60,284 bases of DNA from contig JAPLCQ010000124.1 in the NCBI GenBank assembly GCA_026392115.1, forward strand, positions 1-60,284, in the 5' to 3' direction. This DNA is from Armatimonadota bacterium. Lineage in GTDB: Bacteria > Armatimonadota > Chthonomonadetes > Chthonomonadales > CAJBBX01. The position numbers were made by a program, and so were the translations under genes. Within the stretch, counting starts at the first letter, position 1; each line of letters begins with the position of its first letter. This document shows positions 38,812-46,108 of the stretch, in pieces. The notes beneath the pieces were generated by a model that saw only the letters and a program-made list of their open reading frames with translations, had not been told where the DNA came from and made no database searches.

Positions 38812-39933
38812 ATGAGAAGGACGAGCACTGTGGCGGCCGCCCTGCCGGCCGTGGTCTGTCTGGGAGCGTTGATCGGGTGCCGCGCCACTTCGGCCGAGGA
38901 GGTTCGGCTGGACGCCAACCGGACGCTGGGCGCGGCTGTGACCTTCCGCAACCTCTCGGTGGCGCCGGTCTACGACAGCCGCGCGGTGGTTGCGGACACC
39001 TACACCACGCTGGACGAAGGCCTCAAGGCCAGGACCGTCACCGTGAAGGAGAGCCCCCAGGGCGGCGACGTCAACCGGCTCTACGTCAGCAACCTGGGAA
39101 AGAAGCCGGTCTATATCATCGGCGGCGAGGTGATCCTGGGCGGGCAGCAGGACCGCTGCATCGGCAAAGACCTGCTGCTCAAGCCCGGCGCGAAGGCGGT
39201 GCCGATCACGGTCTTCTGCGTCGAGCATGGCCGCTGGTCGGGCACCGCCTCGTTCACGGGCAGCGCGAAGACGCTTGCATCCCAGACGATCCGCCTGAGC
39301 GCGCAGGATGGCGCCGTGGTGGCCGCCGTGCCGGAACCGACACGGACGCGGCCCGGCGGGCTGATCAACCGGAACCAGGCGTCGGGCGAGGCGGCGGGCT
39401 CGTACGAGCGGATCAGCCGGAGGCAGACGGATGTCTGGGCCGCTGTGGCGCAGAAGAACGCCCGGTTCAAGGCCGCACCGGCGTCGGGCACCTATCGCGA
39501 AGTGCTACAGGGCACGGGCGGTAACTCGGGCGCCAGCGTCGACCCCTACGTCAAGGCGCTCTCCGGCGCCCTCCCGGCGGACAAGCGGCTGGTCGGCGTC
39601 GTGACGGCGGTGGACGGCAAGGTGGTCGCGGCCGACGTCTTCGGCGAGCCGGCCCTCTTCCGCAAGCTCTGGCCCAAGCTGCTCCGGAGCTACGCCTCCG
39701 ACGCGGCCGAGGCGTCGAACGGCAAGCCGGCGCCGGCCCGCCCGGTCACTCCGGCATCTGCCCGCGCGTTCCTGGCTGAGGCCGCATCCGGCGCCGGCAA
39801 GGCGGTGGACCGCGCGGCCGACACCACCATCACGCGGCTCGAGGGCCGCAAGGCCGTGCTGTACCGCTCCGGCGCGTCGGCCGGAGGAGCCATGGCGGGC
39901 AAGGCGGTACACGAAAACTACCTGGCCAAGTAG
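38812..39933 (+). CDS. ARPP-1-like lipoprotein
   Basis: A 373-residue protein. The signal sequence ends in a lipobox (GALIGC, Cys about 23). The body resembles the ARPP-1 domain: NLSVAPVYDSRA, YVSNLGKKPVYIIGGEVILG, GQQDRCIGKDLLLKPGAK, VFCVEHGRW. The C-terminus holds RLVGVVTAVDGKVVAADVFG. The function of this family is not established; the name comes from its association with ADP-ribosylglycohydrolase, rhodanese and phosphatase-type proteins. The ATG follows a G-run by about 8 bases. TATAGT/TATGAT at 38765-38775 may be the -10. No neighbour obviously shares its job. Confidence 0.72.
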   Translation: MRRTSTVAAALPAVVCLGALIGCRATSAEEVRLDANRTLGAAVTFRNLSVAPVYDSRAVVADTYTTLDEGLKARTVTVKESPQGGDVNRLYVSNLGKKPVYIIGGEVILGGQQDRCIGKDLLLKPGAKAVPITVFCVEHGRWSGTASFTGSAKTLASQTIRLSAQDGAVVAAVPEPTRTRPGGLINRNQASGEAAGSYERISRRQTDVWAAVAQKNARFKAAPASGTYREVLQGTGGNSGASVDPYVKALSGALPADKRLVGVVTAVDGKVVAADVFGEPALFRKLWPKLLRSYASDAAEASNGKPAPARPVTPASARAFLAEAASGAGKAVDRAADTTITRLEGRKAVLYRSGASAGGAMAGKAVHENYLAK

Positions 39934-40030
39934 CGGAGGGCGGCCGGCGTAGCCGGGCGAAGCGGGCGTTGGTACAATAGGGCATCGTTGCTCTGCATTC
40001 CCACGGATCATGCGTTCCGGAGCGGACCGG

Positions 40031-40732
40031 ATGGCCTACATCAAGCGCATACTCTGCCTGGCCAGTTCGCGCCGGCCGCCGGCCGGGCGCTGCATCGCCG
40101 GCGTGGAGTGTGATGACGACGGTCTGGGCGCCTGGGTGCGGCCGGTGAGCCCCCGGCGCTCACGCGAGGTCTCAGAGGAGGAGCGTGCCTACCGCGACGG
40201 GTCGGAGCCCCGGGTGTTCGACCTGATCGATGTGCCGCTTCTCTCCCGTGCGCCGTCCGGCCACCAGACCGAGAACCACGTCCTCGACCCGTCGCGCCAC
40301 TGGGAGCGCGTGGGGCGTGCGCCATGGGAGCGTGCCCTGGCTGTCGTGGCTCCGGTCGACGCGCCGCTCTGGGCGTCCGGCGGTTCCACGGTGGGCGGGC
40401 TCAATGACCGCGTGCCCGACGATGCCGCCGCCGTCGAGGGCCGCTCGCTGATGCTGGTTCGGCCGGCGCACCTGACGTTGGAGGCGACCGAGGAGGCTGG
40501 TGCGCCGGGCACGGTGCGGCGCCGGGTGCGTGCCGCCTTCGAATGGGCCGAGATCACGTACCGGATCACCGTCACCGACCCGGTGGCGGAGGAGCGCTGT
40601 CTGGTGGCGCCTGAAGGCATCCTCGTGCTGCGCGACGCCCTCGTCTGCGTTTCGCTCAGCGAGGGCTACAAGGGCTTCGCCTACAAACTGGCTGCCTCGG
40701 TGCTGACGCCGGGGCGGGCGGGAGGGGCATGA
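40031..40732 (+). CDS. Dual OB-domain (DuOB-like) protein
   Basis: A 233-residue protein. MAYIKRILCLASSRRPPAGRC, then GAWVRPVS, DLIDVPLL, HQTENHVLD, YRITVTDP and CVSLSEGYKGFAYKLAASVL fit the dual OB-fold proteins that sit beside DUF488 genes. OB folds usually bind nucleic acid or nucleotides. ATG 40031 has GGAG about 10 bases upstream and is preferred over ATG 40010. Its end overlaps the first DUF488 gene by four bases. A TACAAT at 39973-39978 may be the -10. The activity is unknown; the family name is from memory and unverified. Confidence 0.65.
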   Translation: MAYIKRILCLASSRRPPAGRCIAGVECDDDGLGAWVRPVSPRRSREVSEEERAYRDGSEPRVFDLIDVPLLSRAPSGHQTENHVLDPSRHWERVGRAPWERALAVVAPVDAPLWASGGSTVGGLNDRVPDDAAAVEGRSLMLVRPAHLTLEATEEAGAPGTVRRRVRAAFEWAEITYRITVTDPVAEERCLVAPEGILVLRDALVCVSLSEGYKGFAYKLAASVLTPGRAGGA

Positions 40733-41343
40733 GCGGCACACTCTACACCATCGGCCACTCCAACCACGCGATCGATGGCCTTCTGGGACTGCTTCGCCGC
40801 CACGGCGTGAATGCGGTGGCCGACGTCCGCTCGCATCCCTACAGCCGCCTATACCCCCAGTTCGGCAGGGAGCTGCTGGCGGCGCGGCTGACCGAGGCCG
40901 GCATCGCCTATGCCTATCTCGGCAAGGAGCTGGGCGCCCGGCCCGACGACCCCGGATGCTACGTGGGTGGCAAGGTCGACTTCGGCCTGCTGGCCGCCAC
41001 TCCGGCCTTCCTGCGCGGGCTCGACGGCGTGGAGGCCGGCATGCGCACACGGACGGTGGCCCTGCTCTGCGCCGAGAAAGACCCGCTGACGTGCCACCGG
41101 ACCCTCCTTGTGGCCCGGCATCTGCGCGAACGGGGCGTCGCCGTGAGCCACATCCTGGCCGACGGCACGTTGGAGACGCATGAGGCGGCGCTGGCCCGGC
41201 TCCTTCGCGAGTACAAGCTGGCCGAGCGCGACCTGTTCCATGAGCCGGAGGAGGTCATCGCCGAGGCCTACGCCCTGCGCGGAGCAAAGATCGCCTACGA
41301 GGAGCGGCCGGCCGCCGGAGCCGACCGGGGAGAGATCGAGTGA
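40729..41343 (+). CDS. DUF488 family protein (first copy)
   Basis: A 204-residue DUF488 protein. Motifs are LYTIGHSNH, VADVRSHPYSRLYPQFGR, AYLGKELGARP and LLCAEKDPLTCHRTLLVARHL. The conserved Arg/His/Cys residues suggest a nucleotide- or phosphate-binding pocket, but no reaction is established for the family. The overlap with the upstream dual-OB gene (ATGA) and with the next DUF488 gene (GTGA) indicates one operon and probably one complex. Confidence 0.85.
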   Translation: MSGTLYTIGHSNHAIDGLLGLLRRHGVNAVADVRSHPYSRLYPQFGRELLAARLTEAGIAYAYLGKELGARPDDPGCYVGGKVDFGLLAATPAFLRGLDGVEAGMRTRTVALLCAEKDPLTCHRTLLVARHLRERGVAVSHILADGTLETHEAALARLLREYKLAERDLFHEPEEVIAEAYALRGAKIAYEERPAAGADRGEIE

Positions 41344-41774
41344 CCTTGTACACGATCGGTTTCACGGAGACCACGGCGGAATCGTTCTTCGCACGGCTCG
41401 CGGCTGCCGGGGTCACGAAGGTCATCGATGTGCGCCTGAACAACGTGTCGCAACTGGCCGGCTTCGCCAAGAGGCAGGACCTGCCCTACTTCCTCAGGGC
41501 GCTGGCAGGCATCGGTTACGAGCATCGCCCGGAGTTCGCGCCGACGCAGGAGATACTGGACGCCTTCAAGAAGCAGCGCGGCGACTGGTCGGCGTACGAG
41601 GGCGCATTCACAGCGCTCCTCCGCGACCGCGGCGCCGAATCCGTTGTTGAGCCCTCCGACCTGGACGGGGCCTGCCTGCTCTGCAGCGAACGGGAGCCCG
41701 TCCACTGCCACCGACGGCTGGTCGCCGAGCACCTGGCGGCGCTCATGCCGGGCCTGTCGGTCGTCCACCTGTAG
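41340..41774 (+). CDS. DUF488 family protein (second, short copy)
   Basis: A 144-residue DUF488 protein of the shorter type: LYTIGFTETTAESFFARLA, VIDVRLNNVSQLAGFAKRQDL, YEHRPEFAPTQ, LLCSEREPVHCHRRLVAEHL. It starts at GTG 41340, overlapping the first copy by four bases. The two copies have the same core motifs but different loops, so they likely act on different ligands or form a heteromer. Confidence 0.85.
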   Translation: MTLYTIGFTETTAESFFARLAAAGVTKVIDVRLNNVSQLAGFAKRQDLPYFLRALAGIGYEHRPEFAPTQEILDAFKKQRGDWSAYEGAFTALLRDRGAESVVEPSDLDGACLLCSEREPVHCHRRLVAEHLAALMPGLSVVHL

Positions 41775-41838: not shown

Positions 41839-42712
41839 CTACGGCACGACGTTGAACGCGGTGTTCGCCGTCACCGGGAGGTACCAGGCGTCTCCCGCAA
41901 ACTCGGCCGAGGCGGAGTGCGCGCTGGCGGGTTCGCTGGCGGGGATGGCCCAGGCTGCGTTGGCCCAGCCGTTGGCGGCCGTTGCGGCGGCGCCGATGGG
42001 GGTGCCGTTGACGCTGAAGGTGATTGACTTGCCGGGTTGGATCAGGTAGTCCGGCAGGCTGCGGACGTAGGCCTGGAGCGGGTGGCTCGTGCCGCGCTTG
42101 CCGCTGCGGACGTAGGGCCAGACGTAGAGGTCGCCGGCCGTCACGGTCAGCTTGCCGGTGTTGGCCGAGGCCATGAACCCGCCGTCGCCCGCCCACTCGC
42201 CGCGGATCACTCGCGTCCCGGCGCCGGCGCCTTCGGGTACGGTGTAGCCGATCGGGAGGCAGCCTGTGGCGTTGGTGTTGCCGGAACCCAGGGCTGTACC
42301 GTCGAGCCTGATGGTCATCAGCTTGCCCGAGGGCGCCAGCGTGTTGTTGGTGAGGAACAGGTAGGCCTTAAGGACTGTGTAGCCCTTGACCTGTGCGGTG
42401 CGGTCCACCACGTAGACCTTGGTCGCCACGGTCTGCGCCGTGAGTGTGGCGGTCGTCGATGAAGCAAGGTATCCGGCATCACCGGCGAACTCCACCGTAA
42501 TGGTCCTGACCGCGGACCCGGGCCCAATGACCCAATCGTGGGCGGCTTGCCCGTTCGCGTCGGTTGCCGTTGAGCCGACGGCGACGCCGTCAATCTGGAA
42601 GTCCAGGGCCCGACCCGCAAGCCAAGCATTGTCGCTGAGGCGCTTGAGGTAGCCCTTCAGCGTTGCGGTAGTGGTGATGATCCCAGAGCGGTCCGGCGCG
42701 TATATGGAGGTG
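41839..42712. repeat. Direct repeat (copy 1) of the Ig-like tail sequence
   Basis: Closely matches 43955-44825 at DNA level over about 870 bases, for example around the LYxWPYVRSGKRGTS segment. The propeller parts of the same genes are far less alike, so the tails have been duplicated or homogenised. Confidence 0.75.
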
Positions 42713-43854
42713 CTGGTCCGCGGGGGTAACAGCGCGATGCCGTGGTTGGATCCGGCCCTGATCGCCACCACGCCGGCCAGGCCGAAGACCTTAACCGGTA
42801 TGCTGCTGTTCGCTCCCGTGTTGTCGCCCAGCTCTCCCTGTTCGTTCAGTCCCCACGACCACGCGGTTCCGTCGGATCTCAGCGCAAGGCTGTATGGCCC
42901 ACCGGCGGCGACGGCAACGCACCCGGTCAGGCTGGAGACCTGGACCGGTGTGAGGCTATCCGTCGTCGAGCCGTCGCCGAGTTGCCCGCCGTAGTTCGCT
43001 CCCCACGCCCAGGCGGTGCCGTCGGACTTGCACGCAAGACTGTGCGCCGCACCTCCCGCGATGCTGGTCACGTCCGTAAGGCCGGAGACCTGAACCGGGC
43101 TCAGGCTGGTCGTAGTGGTTCCGTCTCCGATCTGACCGGAGCCGTTCTCACCCCATGCCCATACCGTGCCGTCGGACTTCAGGGCCAGGCTGTGCACGCC
43201 CCCTCCGGCGATGGCCACGATGCCGGTGATGCCGGGGACCTGAACGGGGACCAACCGTGCCGTTGTGGCGCCGTCGCCGACCTGGCCGGACCAGTTCGCT
43301 CCCCATGCCCATACCGTGCCGTCGGACCTGAGCGCCAGGCTGTGGTAGCCCCCGCCCGAAATCGCGATGACGCTTGTGAGGCCAGAGACTGGTACCGATG
43401 TCCATCGGTTCGTGGTCGTGCCGTCGCCGACGGGTCCGTTGCCGTTGGCGCCCCAGGCACGGATCGTGCCGTCTGCAAGCAGCGCCAGGTTGTGCAGTGC
43501 GCCGGCCGCGACCGCAGTGGAGCCTGAGATGCCGGACACCTGCACCGGCGTGGAGCGCGTCGTGGTGGTCCCGTCGCCGACGGTGCCCCATGTGTTCTCG
43601 CCCCAGGCCCAAACAGTGCCGTCCGACCTGAGCAACATCGAGTGGTACTGCCCGCCCGCCGCACCAACGACGGCTGCCACACCGGCGATCCGCACCGGAG
43701 CGTAGCGGTTGAACGTAGTGCCGTCGCCTAGTTGGCGATGGCTGTTGGCGCCCCAATCCCAGGCGTTGTCGTCAGCGGACGCCTGCCCGCCCACCATCCC
43801 CGTGCCCGAGCACAGTATCGCAAAGAGGCCGACCCGCCACACCGAGGTCTGCAA
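41839..43854 (-). CDS. Exported RCC1-repeat propeller with Ig-like tail (copy 1)
   Basis: A 671-residue protein. The signal peptide (about 1-27) precedes seven RCC1 repeats (about 30-395, variants of VWAWGENTWGTVGDGTTT), enough for one seven-bladed propeller. Three Ig-like modules follow: SIYAPDRSGIITTTATLKGYL, TKVYVVDRTAQVKGYTVLKAYL, and LYVWPYVRSGKRGTSHPLQ. It ends TAFNVVP. AAGGAG lies 6 bases before the ATG. It is a tandem paralogue of the gene at 43955, most alike in the tail. In bacteria such propellers commonly bind other proteins or glycans at the surface; the ligand is unknown. Confidence 0.88.
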   Translation of the reverse strand: MQTSVWRVGLFAILCSGTGMVGGQASADDNAWDWGANSHRQLGDGTTFNRYAPVRIAGVAAVVGAAGGQYHSMLLRSDGTVWAWGENTWGTVGDGTTTTRSTPVQVSGISGSTAVAAGALHNLALLADGTIRAWGANGNGPVGDGTTTNRWTSVPVSGLTSVIAISGGGYHSLALRSDGTVWAWGANWSGQVGDGATTARLVPVQVPGITGIVAIAGGGVHSLALKSDGTVWAWGENGSGQIGDGTTTTSLSPVQVSGLTDVTSIAGGAAHSLACKSDGTAWAWGANYGGQLGDGSTTDSLTPVQVSSLTGCVAVAAGGPYSLALRSDGTAWSWGLNEQGELGDNTGANSSIPVKVFGLAGVVAIRAGSNHGIALLPPRTSTSIYAPDRSGIITTTATLKGYLKRLSDNAWLAGRALDFQIDGVAVGSTATDANGQAAHDWVIGPGSAVRTITVEFAGDAGYLASSTTATLTAQTVATKVYVVDRTAQVKGYTVLKAYLFLTNNTLAPSGKLMTIRLDGTALGSGNTNATGCLPIGYTVPEGAGAGTRVIRGEWAGDGGFMASANTGKLTVTAGDLYVWPYVRSGKRGTSHPLQAYVRSLPDYLIQPGKSITFSVNGTPIGAAATAANGWANAAWAIPASEPASAHSASAEFAGDAWYLPVTANTAFNVVP

Positions 43855-43954: not shown

Positions 43955-44825
43955 TTACGGCACCACGTTGAACGCGGTGTTCGCCGTCACCGGCAGGTAC
44001 CAGGCATCGCCGGCGAACTCAGCCGTGGCTGTGTGGGCGCCGGTAGGCTCACCGGCGGGGATGGTCCATGTGGTCGAAGCCCAGCCGTTGGCGGCCGTGG
44101 CGACCGTGCCGATGGGGGTGCCGTTGACGCTGAAGGTGATGGGCTTGCCGGGTTGGATCACGTAGTCGGGCAGGCTGCGGACGTAGGCCTGGAGCGGGTG
44201 GCTGGTGCCGCGCTTGCCGCTGCGGACGTAGGGCCAGATATAGAGGTCGCCCTTGGTCACCGTCAGCTTGCCGGTGTTGGCGGAAGCCGTGTAGCCGCCG
44301 TCGCCCGCCCACTCGCTCCGGATCACGCGCGTCCCGGCGCCGGCGCCCTCGGGCGCCGTATAGCCGAGTTGCACATATCCCGCGGGCCTCGTGGTGTCCG
44401 TTCCGAGAGTCGAGCCGTCCAGCTTGACCGTCATGAGCTTGCCGCCGACGGGCGTGTTGTTGAGGAGGTAGAGGTACGCCTTCAGCACCACGTAGGACTT
44501 CACCTTCGCGGTGCGGTCCACCACGTAGACCTTCGTCGCCACGGTCTGGGCGGTCAGGGCCGCGGTGGCGGACGAAGGCTTGTAGTCGATCTCGCCGGCG
44601 AACTGGACCTTGATCGTGCGGCTTGCGGATCCGGCACTGATGAGCCAGCTGAGGGCGGCTTGCCCGTTGGCATCGGTCGCGGCGAATCCGACGGAGACGC
44701 CGTCGACCAGGAAGTCGAGCGACCTGCCCGCCAGCCAGGCGTTGTCCGGCAGGCGCTTCAGGTAGCCCTTCAGGGCGACCGTCGTGGTGATGATGCCCGT
44801 GCGGTCGGGCGCATAGATGGACGTA
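43955..44825. repeat. Direct repeat (copy 2) of the Ig-like tail sequence
   Basis: Partner of the copy at 41839-42712. Confidence 0.75.
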
Positions 44826-46000
44826 CTGACCGGTGCGGGCATGGCGGCCAGCGTGTGGTTGGCGCCGCATCCGATGGTCCTGACACCCGTCAGCGCGGGT
44901 ACAGGGACCGGCGTGGTTCGCTCGGTAACGGCGCCGTCGCCGAGTTGGCCCCAGCCGTTGTTGCCCCAGGCCCATATGGAGCCTCCGGGCAGGAAGGCGA
45001 ACCCGTGCTGGGCTCCGCAGGCGATGCCGGTGACGCCCGTGAGGCCCGGCACCTGAACGGGCGTCGGGCAGTTCGCGGTGGAGCCGTTGCCCAGCGCCGA
45101 CTTGTCACCCCAGCCCCAAGCCCATACGGCGCCGTCGGACACCAGCGCCACGCTGTGCCCGTACCCGCAGGCGATGGCCGTGGCGCCGGCCATGCCGGAT
45201 ACATGAACCGGGCTTGTGCGCCGAGTGGTTGTTCCGTCGCCGCACTGGCCGTAGGTGTTCTGCCCCCACGACCAGGCCGTTCCGTCCAGCTTGAGCGCCA
45301 GGCTGTGGTACCAGCCGGCCGCGATCTTCGATGCGCCGGCGAGGCCCTGCACCTGCACGGCGACGGCGCTGTCGGTCGTGGTGCCGTCGCCCAGCGCGCC
45401 GTTGCTGTTGGAGCCCCATGCCCATACGGTGCCGTCCGACTTGAGGGCCAGGCTGTGCCCGAAGCCGCAGGCGATCGCCGTGACGCCCGTCAGGCCCACC
45501 ACCTTGACCGGTGACCAGCGCTCGGTGAGGGTGCCGTCGCCCAGTTGGCCGCTGCCGTTGTCGCCCCAGGCCCAGACGGTGCCGTCGGACTTCAGAGCGA
45601 GGGTGTGAACGTAGCCGCAGGCGATGGCGGTGACCCCGGAAACGCCCGACACCAGCATGGGTGCAATGTGGTCGTCGGTGGTCCCGTCGCCGAGCTGCCC
45701 CATCCAGTTGCCGCCGATGGCCCAGACGGAGCCGTTGTTCTTGAGCAGAACATTGTGGGCGCCGCCGCCCGCCACGGCCACGACATCGGCCATGCCGGGC
45801 ATGGCCACAGGTGTGTGCCTGTCGTTGGTCGTGCCGTCTCCGAGCTGCCCGCGGCCGTTCCATCCGCAGCCGAGCGCCTCGCCGTCGGCGGTCGAGCGCG
45901 CGCTCAAGGTTCCGAGGCAGAGGCAGAACAGGGCCGCGAGCAGGCCGATGGCGATGCGAGGCCGGTCACGCGAGACCAGCGGTGTTGCGCTCAGCTTCAT
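43955..46000 (-). CDS. Exported RCC1-repeat propeller with Ig-like tail (copy 2)
   Basis: A 681-residue paralogue of the gene at 41839. The signal peptide ends near residue 37. Seven RCC1 repeats (ALGCGWNGRGQLGDGTT, VWAWGDNGSGQLGDGT and others) lie at about 45-400, followed by the same three Ig-like modules and TAFNVVP at the end. The repeats carry several cysteines (AIACGYGHS) missing in copy 1. GGAGGG lies 4-5 bases before ATG 46000; an ATG at 46012 has no ribosome binding site. The 100 bases between the two copies contain no gene. Confidence 0.88.
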   Translation of the reverse strand: MKLSATPLVSRDRPRIAIGLLAALFCLCLGTLSARSTADGEALGCGWNGRGQLGDGTTNDRHTPVAMPGMADVVAVAGGGAHNVLLKNNGSVWAIGGNWMGQLGDGTTDDHIAPMLVSGVSGVTAIACGYVHTLALKSDGTVWAWGDNGSGQLGDGTLTERWSPVKVVGLTGVTAIACGFGHSLALKSDGTVWAWGSNSNGALGDGTTTDSAVAVQVQGLAGASKIAAGWYHSLALKLDGTAWSWGQNTYGQCGDGTTTRRTSPVHVSGMAGATAIACGYGHSVALVSDGAVWAWGWGDKSALGNGSTANCPTPVQVPGLTGVTGIACGAQHGFAFLPGGSIWAWGNNGWGQLGDGAVTERTTPVPVPALTGVRTIGCGANHTLAAMPAPVSTSIYAPDRTGIITTTVALKGYLKRLPDNAWLAGRSLDFLVDGVSVGFAATDANGQAALSWLISAGSASRTIKVQFAGEIDYKPSSATAALTAQTVATKVYVVDRTAKVKSYVVLKAYLYLLNNTPVGGKLMTVKLDGSTLGTDTTRPAGYVQLGYTAPEGAGAGTRVIRSEWAGDGGYTASANTGKLTVTKGDLYIWPYVRSGKRGTSHPLQAYVRSLPDYVIQPGKPITFSVNGTPIGTVATAANGWASTTWTIPAGEPTGAHTATAEFAGDAWYLPVTANTAFNVVP

Positions 46001-46108
46001 AGGGCCCTCCATGTGGCGGATGCCGCCGCCGCACTGTTTCGCGGCGCGGGCATGGCTTCCTGCCGAGGAGGGCCCGTGCCGGGACGGGACGGCGGCGCCT
46101 GAGTACCG

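Follow-up and report, generated by a model that had tools for sequence, protein, structure and literature searches.

The three overlapping genes at positions 40031 to 41774 of contig JAPLCQ010000124.1 from an Armatimonadota bacterium are, judged by their profile matches, a chromosomal copy of PDC-M45, a candidate phage-defence system of PADLOC. The stretch analysed (60,284 nucleotides) is referred to as the window. When compared with PADLOC-DB 2.0.0, the proteins of genes A, B and C matched PDLC04653 (M45A, 254 bits), PDLC04657 (M45B, 263 bits) and PDLC04658 (M45C, 207 bits), each over nearly its full length, and the genes are adjacent and on one strand. A preliminary description of the window had put the trio forward as a candidate uncharacterised system. 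It is indeed a conserved three-gene unit, but not an unlisted one, and the interpretation is only partly supported because the system has already been listed as a candidate. The PDC systems originate from a guilt-by-embedding preprint and are mostly unvalidated (PMC12988326).

With a probability of roughly 0.45, we favour the reading that the cassette is an anti-phage system in which a pair of cysteine-phosphatase-like enzymes, guided by single-stranded DNA (ssDNA) or by a DNA end, would act on phage DNA.

Organisation of the cassette

The genes and the associated sequence features are as follows.

40031-40732, plus strand: gene A, DuOB protein (PDC-M45A), 233 aa, ATG start; matches PF22557 and PDLC04653
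40729-40732, plus strand: A/B overlap, 4 nt, ATGA, from the sequence
40729-41343, plus strand: gene B, DUF488 protein (PDC-M45B), 204 aa, ATG start; matches PF04343 and PDLC04657
41340-41343, plus strand: B/C overlap, 4 nt, GTGA, from the sequence
41340-41774, plus strand: gene C, DUF488-N3a protein (PDC-M45C), 144 aa, GTG start; matches PF04343, PF22751 and PDLC04658
41793-41835, no strand assigned: perfect hairpin of 17 bp in the gap where gene C and a convergent RCC1-repeat gene face each other with their 3' ends, from the sequence; folding -42.6 kcal/mol, z -4.96

The reading frames confirm the reported overlap of four bases at each of the two junctions. Two such overlaps alone are ordinary, and it is because the arrangement recurs across Armatimonadota genomes that it goes beyond chance. 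Gene A is preceded by a GGAG (40019-40022), with another in-frame ATG further upstream at 40010, and the hairpin downstream of gene C is likely a bidirectional terminator.

Two neighbours were considered as further parts of the cassette and rejected. The ARPP-1 gene at 38812-39933 lies directly upstream of the cassette in three genomes of the same genus only and is found on other contigs elsewhere. Its product carries a lipoprotein-like signal and is probably exported, because the N-terminus is signal-like and contains a cysteine; a second ARPP-1 gene is located elsewhere in the genome (C155). The downstream RCC1-repeat genes are convergent with the cassette and separated from it by the strong hairpin. 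Their products, encoded side by side on the minus strand (41839-43854 and 43955-46012), are RCC1-repeat proteins, the first of which showed bacterial Ig-like domains when scanned and the second of which is similar.

The composition analysis gave no GC shift in the cassette region, and Pfam gave no defence gene among the close neighbours of the cassette. In addition, the window contains no homologue of the BrxC, PglX, PglZ, BrxL, DrmD, RecQ, UvrA and UvrB queries. The closest public relatives of the window contig are Chthonomonas-type MAGs, and two close relatives were obtained from the contig scan.

Family assignment of the three proteins

The gene A protein exceeds the Pfam cut-off for DuOB by far (PF22557, 193.9 bits, cut-off 27), and both B (71.9 bits) and C (77.0 bits) lie well above that of DUF488 (PF04343, cut-off 22.2), a family of the rhodanese-phosphatase superfamily. 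In contrast, only C (35.7 bits) passes the cut-off of 27 for PF22751, the active DUF488-N3/DUF488-N3a model, which B (18.7 bits) does not reach; B and C are members of different DUF488 subfamilies, as is seen from their separate PADLOC models. Neither NCBIfam, with no match for the three proteins, nor a sequence search of the PDB, in which no relative of any of the three was convincing, added to this. The Pfam families DuOB and DUF488-N3/N3a reportedly stem from Burroughs and Aravind (2023), who are said to have predicted that part of the RapZ-C/DUF488/DUF4326 clade processes DNA ends. The statement that no enzyme activity is known for the three agrees with the literature searched, in which no activity of any DUF488 protein was found.

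Conservation of the three-gene unit

DuOB is patchily distributed, being present in 32 of 201 Armatimonadota genomes, the phylum to which the sampling of chromosomal cassettes was almost wholly confined. In these genomes B and C stand beside DuOB on the same strand for 28 of the 32 DuOB genes, so that the trio is not rarely associated; the gene order is BCA in 22 of the complete cassettes and ABC in 6. The four exceptions are a genome in which C is fused to a shortened B (G134), one in which the cassette is divided among contigs (G030), one whose DUF488 genes are broken and lie on a different contig (G118) and one with DuOB alone (G141). At the genome level, A and C co-occur strongly (both 31, A only 1, C only 5, neither 164; Fisher p 4e-30, for genomes that are non-independent through kinship). 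At least two of the five C-positive genomes lacking a Pfam DuOB match have a divergent A adjoining C (G029, G132). B-like and C-like DUF488 genes occur without A too. The pairwise distance matrices of A, B and C correlate as well (r 0.64-0.74, 0 of 2000 permutations), a correlation to which shared descent contributes.

Natural gene fusions add to this picture, namely a B-C fusion of 377 aa (L130) and a DuOB-RecQ fusion (G006). Going by these fusions, the strict coupling that had been taken to suggest a complex probably does reflect one.

Two other fusions were set aside. An apparent fusion of B to a 1529-aa protein (G053) has an extension resembling a spurious antisense frame. The in-frame joining of DuOB to dihydrodipicolinate reductase (DapB), seen in one Armatimonadota genus, g18 (L041:3214-4836, L042, L043, L045), is real but uninformative as a functional clue, being limited to a single genus. 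In one further genome (G166, L054:8613-10565) B and C are separated by the gene of a 650-aa protein without a Pfam or PADLOC match, and a RecQ gene directly follows A.

Predicted folds and catalytic motifs

The AF2 model of the gene A protein (pLDDT 93.9) shows a tandem OB arrangement which matches tandem-OB proteins across residues 1-228. Its nearest folds are RPA, the baculovirus ssDNA-binding protein LEF-3, the Oxytricha telomere end-binding protein and HIN domains (Z 4-6.3; Foldseek E about 1e-4), nearly all of them DNA-binding and most of them ssDNA-binding. Gene A is therefore predicted from its model to encode a binder of ssDNA or other nucleic acid, in agreement with the earlier suggestion that the OB folds point to nucleic acid binding. 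A shares the predicted tandem OB arrangement with RPA-like ssDNA-binding proteins, but it has no convincing sequence similarity to them and is set apart by the nearly invariant Cys21 and Glu81, which are conserved DuOB residues.

Both DUF488 proteins have an intact cysteine motif, CAEKDPLTCHR in B and CSEREPVHCHR in C. Invariant residues are D32, R34, C114, E116, P119 and C122-H123-R124 in B (19/19 rows) and C115, E117 and C123-H124-R125 in C (25/25 rows); the Asp and Arg of the DxR motif and the Cys, Glu, His and Arg of CxExxPxxCHR are kept in all rows of both. The motifs described as phosphate-site-like are thus invariant, and since they are kept in every row, B and C both look like active enzymes.

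In the model of C (pLDDT 86), Cys115 ends a strand that is followed by a loop and a helix, the arrangement seen in phosphatases of the PTP fold. The model matches SsoPTP with Z 7.2 (110 residues, rmsd 3.3), PRLs and DUSPs, with Foldseek E above 1e-3, and methylase folds of the CobF, CbiL and diphthine-synthase type tie with SsoPTP at Z 6-7.6. The model of C resembles the Cys-dependent PTP-fold phosphatases, at a modest Z. Two points speak against the favoured reading, namely that the fold matches of A and C are modest (Z 6-8) and that the C-to-R spacing is longer than the CX5R of classical PTPs.

Defence contexts of relatives

Several relatives of the cassette lie within or close to known defence genes (L134, L135, G013, L035, L037). 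On two contigs of the viral collection the cassette is embedded in a BREX operon, in the order brxC-pglX-A-B-C-pglZ-brxL (L134 and L135, with brxC seen in L134 only). A DISARM-like locus (G013) has a DrmD-like helicase, then B joined in frame to a DrmMI/IIG-like methylase, and after these C and A; in G082 the genes upstream of ABC include a DrmMI-like methylase and a helicase that is DpdE/DrmD-like. On plasmids, ABC adjoins CBASS genes in Agrobacterium, lies within a type III-B CRISPR region in Allochromatium and has a SNF2 protein downstream in Rhodovastum. Additionally, 5 of 31 RecQ genes across the 32 DuOB-bearing genomes lie less than 4 kb from the cassette, against about 0.05 expected by our estimate; RecQ directly adjoins the cassette in G166, G125, G135 and G175 and is near it in G030.

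The suggested closeness to defence or DNA-repair genes thus holds for the relatives (BREX, DISARM-like, CBASS, CRISPR, RecQ, UvrA/UvrB, AlkZ), but not for the window copy. The latter differs from the BREX and DISARM relatives, which lie inside or beside these systems, in having none of the BREX and DISARM genes searched for, and it adjoins no other defence system.

The queried A proteins had no match in 50,697 phage records. Gene 42 of Gordonia phage Eviarto (L085:4977-5429) encodes a DUF488 protein near an immunity repressor and an integrase; this protein is closest to another candidate, PDC-M19A.

Proposed function

In the anti-phage reading, A, as an RPA-like tandem-OB module, would hold ssDNA or a DNA end that is exposed by a helicase or by the replicating phage, and would bring to it B and C, which in this reading are Cys-dependent enzymes with a rhodanese/PTP-phosphatase fold. 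The two may then act on a terminal phosphate or sugar-phosphate via a phospho-cysteine, and the ends of the invader would thereby become unfit for priming, ligation or repair. This reading is supported by the conservation of the unit, the invariant motifs, the predicted folds, the RecQ partners and the gene fusions, by the placement of relatives with BREX, DISARM-like, CBASS and CRISPR systems and in prophages, and by the absence of the queried A proteins from the phage records. Against it stand the lack of defence neighbours in the window and several contexts of lone C and B genes, which also fit a role in repair.

Homologues of C that are 52-54% identical to the window protein occur without A and B in formaldehyde-resistance islands (frmR, fghA, formaldehyde dehydrogenase), where they adjoin UvrA or UvrB, on IncC, IncHI2, IncP and Comamonas plasmids. 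Those tested form a single clade within the tree of cassette-borne C proteins. Solo C was present in 12 of 5,426 complete E. coli genomes and was plasmid-borne in all 12, and the literature searched yielded no paper linking DUF488 to formaldehyde or UvrA. Examples of these solo M45C-like genes in formaldehyde islands, on conjugative and other plasmids, are L081:7001-7432, L082:7001-7432, L090 and L091. Similarly, M45B stands without its two partners in one genome (G126, L073:8164-11727), where its neighbours are an AlkZ-like DNA glycosylase and a 568-aa protein with no family match. These two associations, of solo C with UvrA/UvrB and of B with the glycosylase, hint at DNA as the substrate.

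They also suggest a stress DNA-repair module, by which the host would clean up adducts or DNA ends that are damaged or blocked, e.g. after aldehyde or alkyl damage, and which mobile elements would spread under selection by toxicants rather than by phages. The RecQ partners, the DuOB-RecQ fusion and the window cassette with its lack of defence neighbours would agree with this. We nevertheless consider it rather unlikely, as full cassettes are found inside BREX, beside DISARM-like genes and in prophages, and as the distribution is patchy (32/201 genomes).

A further form of the cassette consists of A and C followed by a DUF4326 protein, D, while B is missing; the D examined combines mSLOG and DUF4326 and is not covered by the PADLOC M45 models. 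This A-C-D form is carried by plasmids of Acinetobacter, Citrobacter, Klebsiella, Salmonella, Moraxella and Leclercia and by 22 contigs of the viral collection, one group adjoining terminase and portal genes in prophages; no near-identical match was obtained in complete E. coli genomes. B and D never occur together in one cassette. In the tree of C proteins the A-C-D rows are nested among the ABC rows, and the well-supported branches require at least two changes of label.

The substitution of mSLOG-DUF4326 for B could indicate that B and C, or mSLOG-DUF4326, process a soluble nucleotide or ADP-ribose derivative made during infection, either as effector or as degrader of a signal, with A as the sensor. 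We regard this as unlikely, since the fold of A matches ssDNA proteins that bind a polymer and since the helicase partners and the helicase fusion point to DNA.

It is very improbable that B and C are rhodanese-like transferases of sulfur or another group which mark DNA presented by A as ssDNA. DUF488 is near rhodanese and PTP proteins by fold, and cassettes are found with the DNA methylases that belong to BREX and to DISARM-like systems, but the conserved unit has no sulfur-donor, SAM-dependent or nuclease partner and the trio often stands alone.

On small plasmids, some of only 4,167 bp, the cassette is a main cargo, as might befit a toxin-antitoxin or plasmid-maintenance module, yet such a role is the least probable of all, given that there is no small antitoxin-like protein, that the catalytic motifs of both enzymes are intact with no paired inhibitor, and that many plasmids tolerate C alone.

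The 4,167-bp plasmid (L095) belongs to the same replicon cluster as plasmid pA172 (L087). In pA172 an ISEcp1-blaCMY-31-blc-sugE segment lies inside the DuOB gene of the A-C-D cassette, and in the smaller plasmid the cassette is free of this segment.

Conclusion

We tentatively, and with considerable doubt, suggest that PDC-M45 belongs, as one of its forms, to a broader modular immune family that processes DNA ends. Such a family would have a constant core of A and C, an exchangeable second rhodanese-phosphatase enzyme (DUF488-B or mSLOG-DUF4326) and RecQ-type helicases or BREX and DISARM operons as hosts, and its C enzyme would also be used alone, together with UvrA/UvrB, against formaldehyde damage; a single phosphatase chemistry would then act in immunity as well as in the repair of DNA adducts. 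Most worth following are the exchange of B for D, the embedding in BREX, the fusions of DuOB to RecQ and of B to C, and the association of solo C with UvrA/UvrB. Two of these, the exchange for mSLOG-DUF4326 and the solo C genes in formaldehyde islands, provide handles on the substrate, and the system is simple to test with the cassettes that small plasmids carry naturally. For DUF488, a widespread enzyme family, neither a solved structure by sequence search nor a published activity in the literature searched was found. If the anti-phage reading is true, the cassette would be an immune system built on cysteine-phosphatase chemistry at DNA ends.
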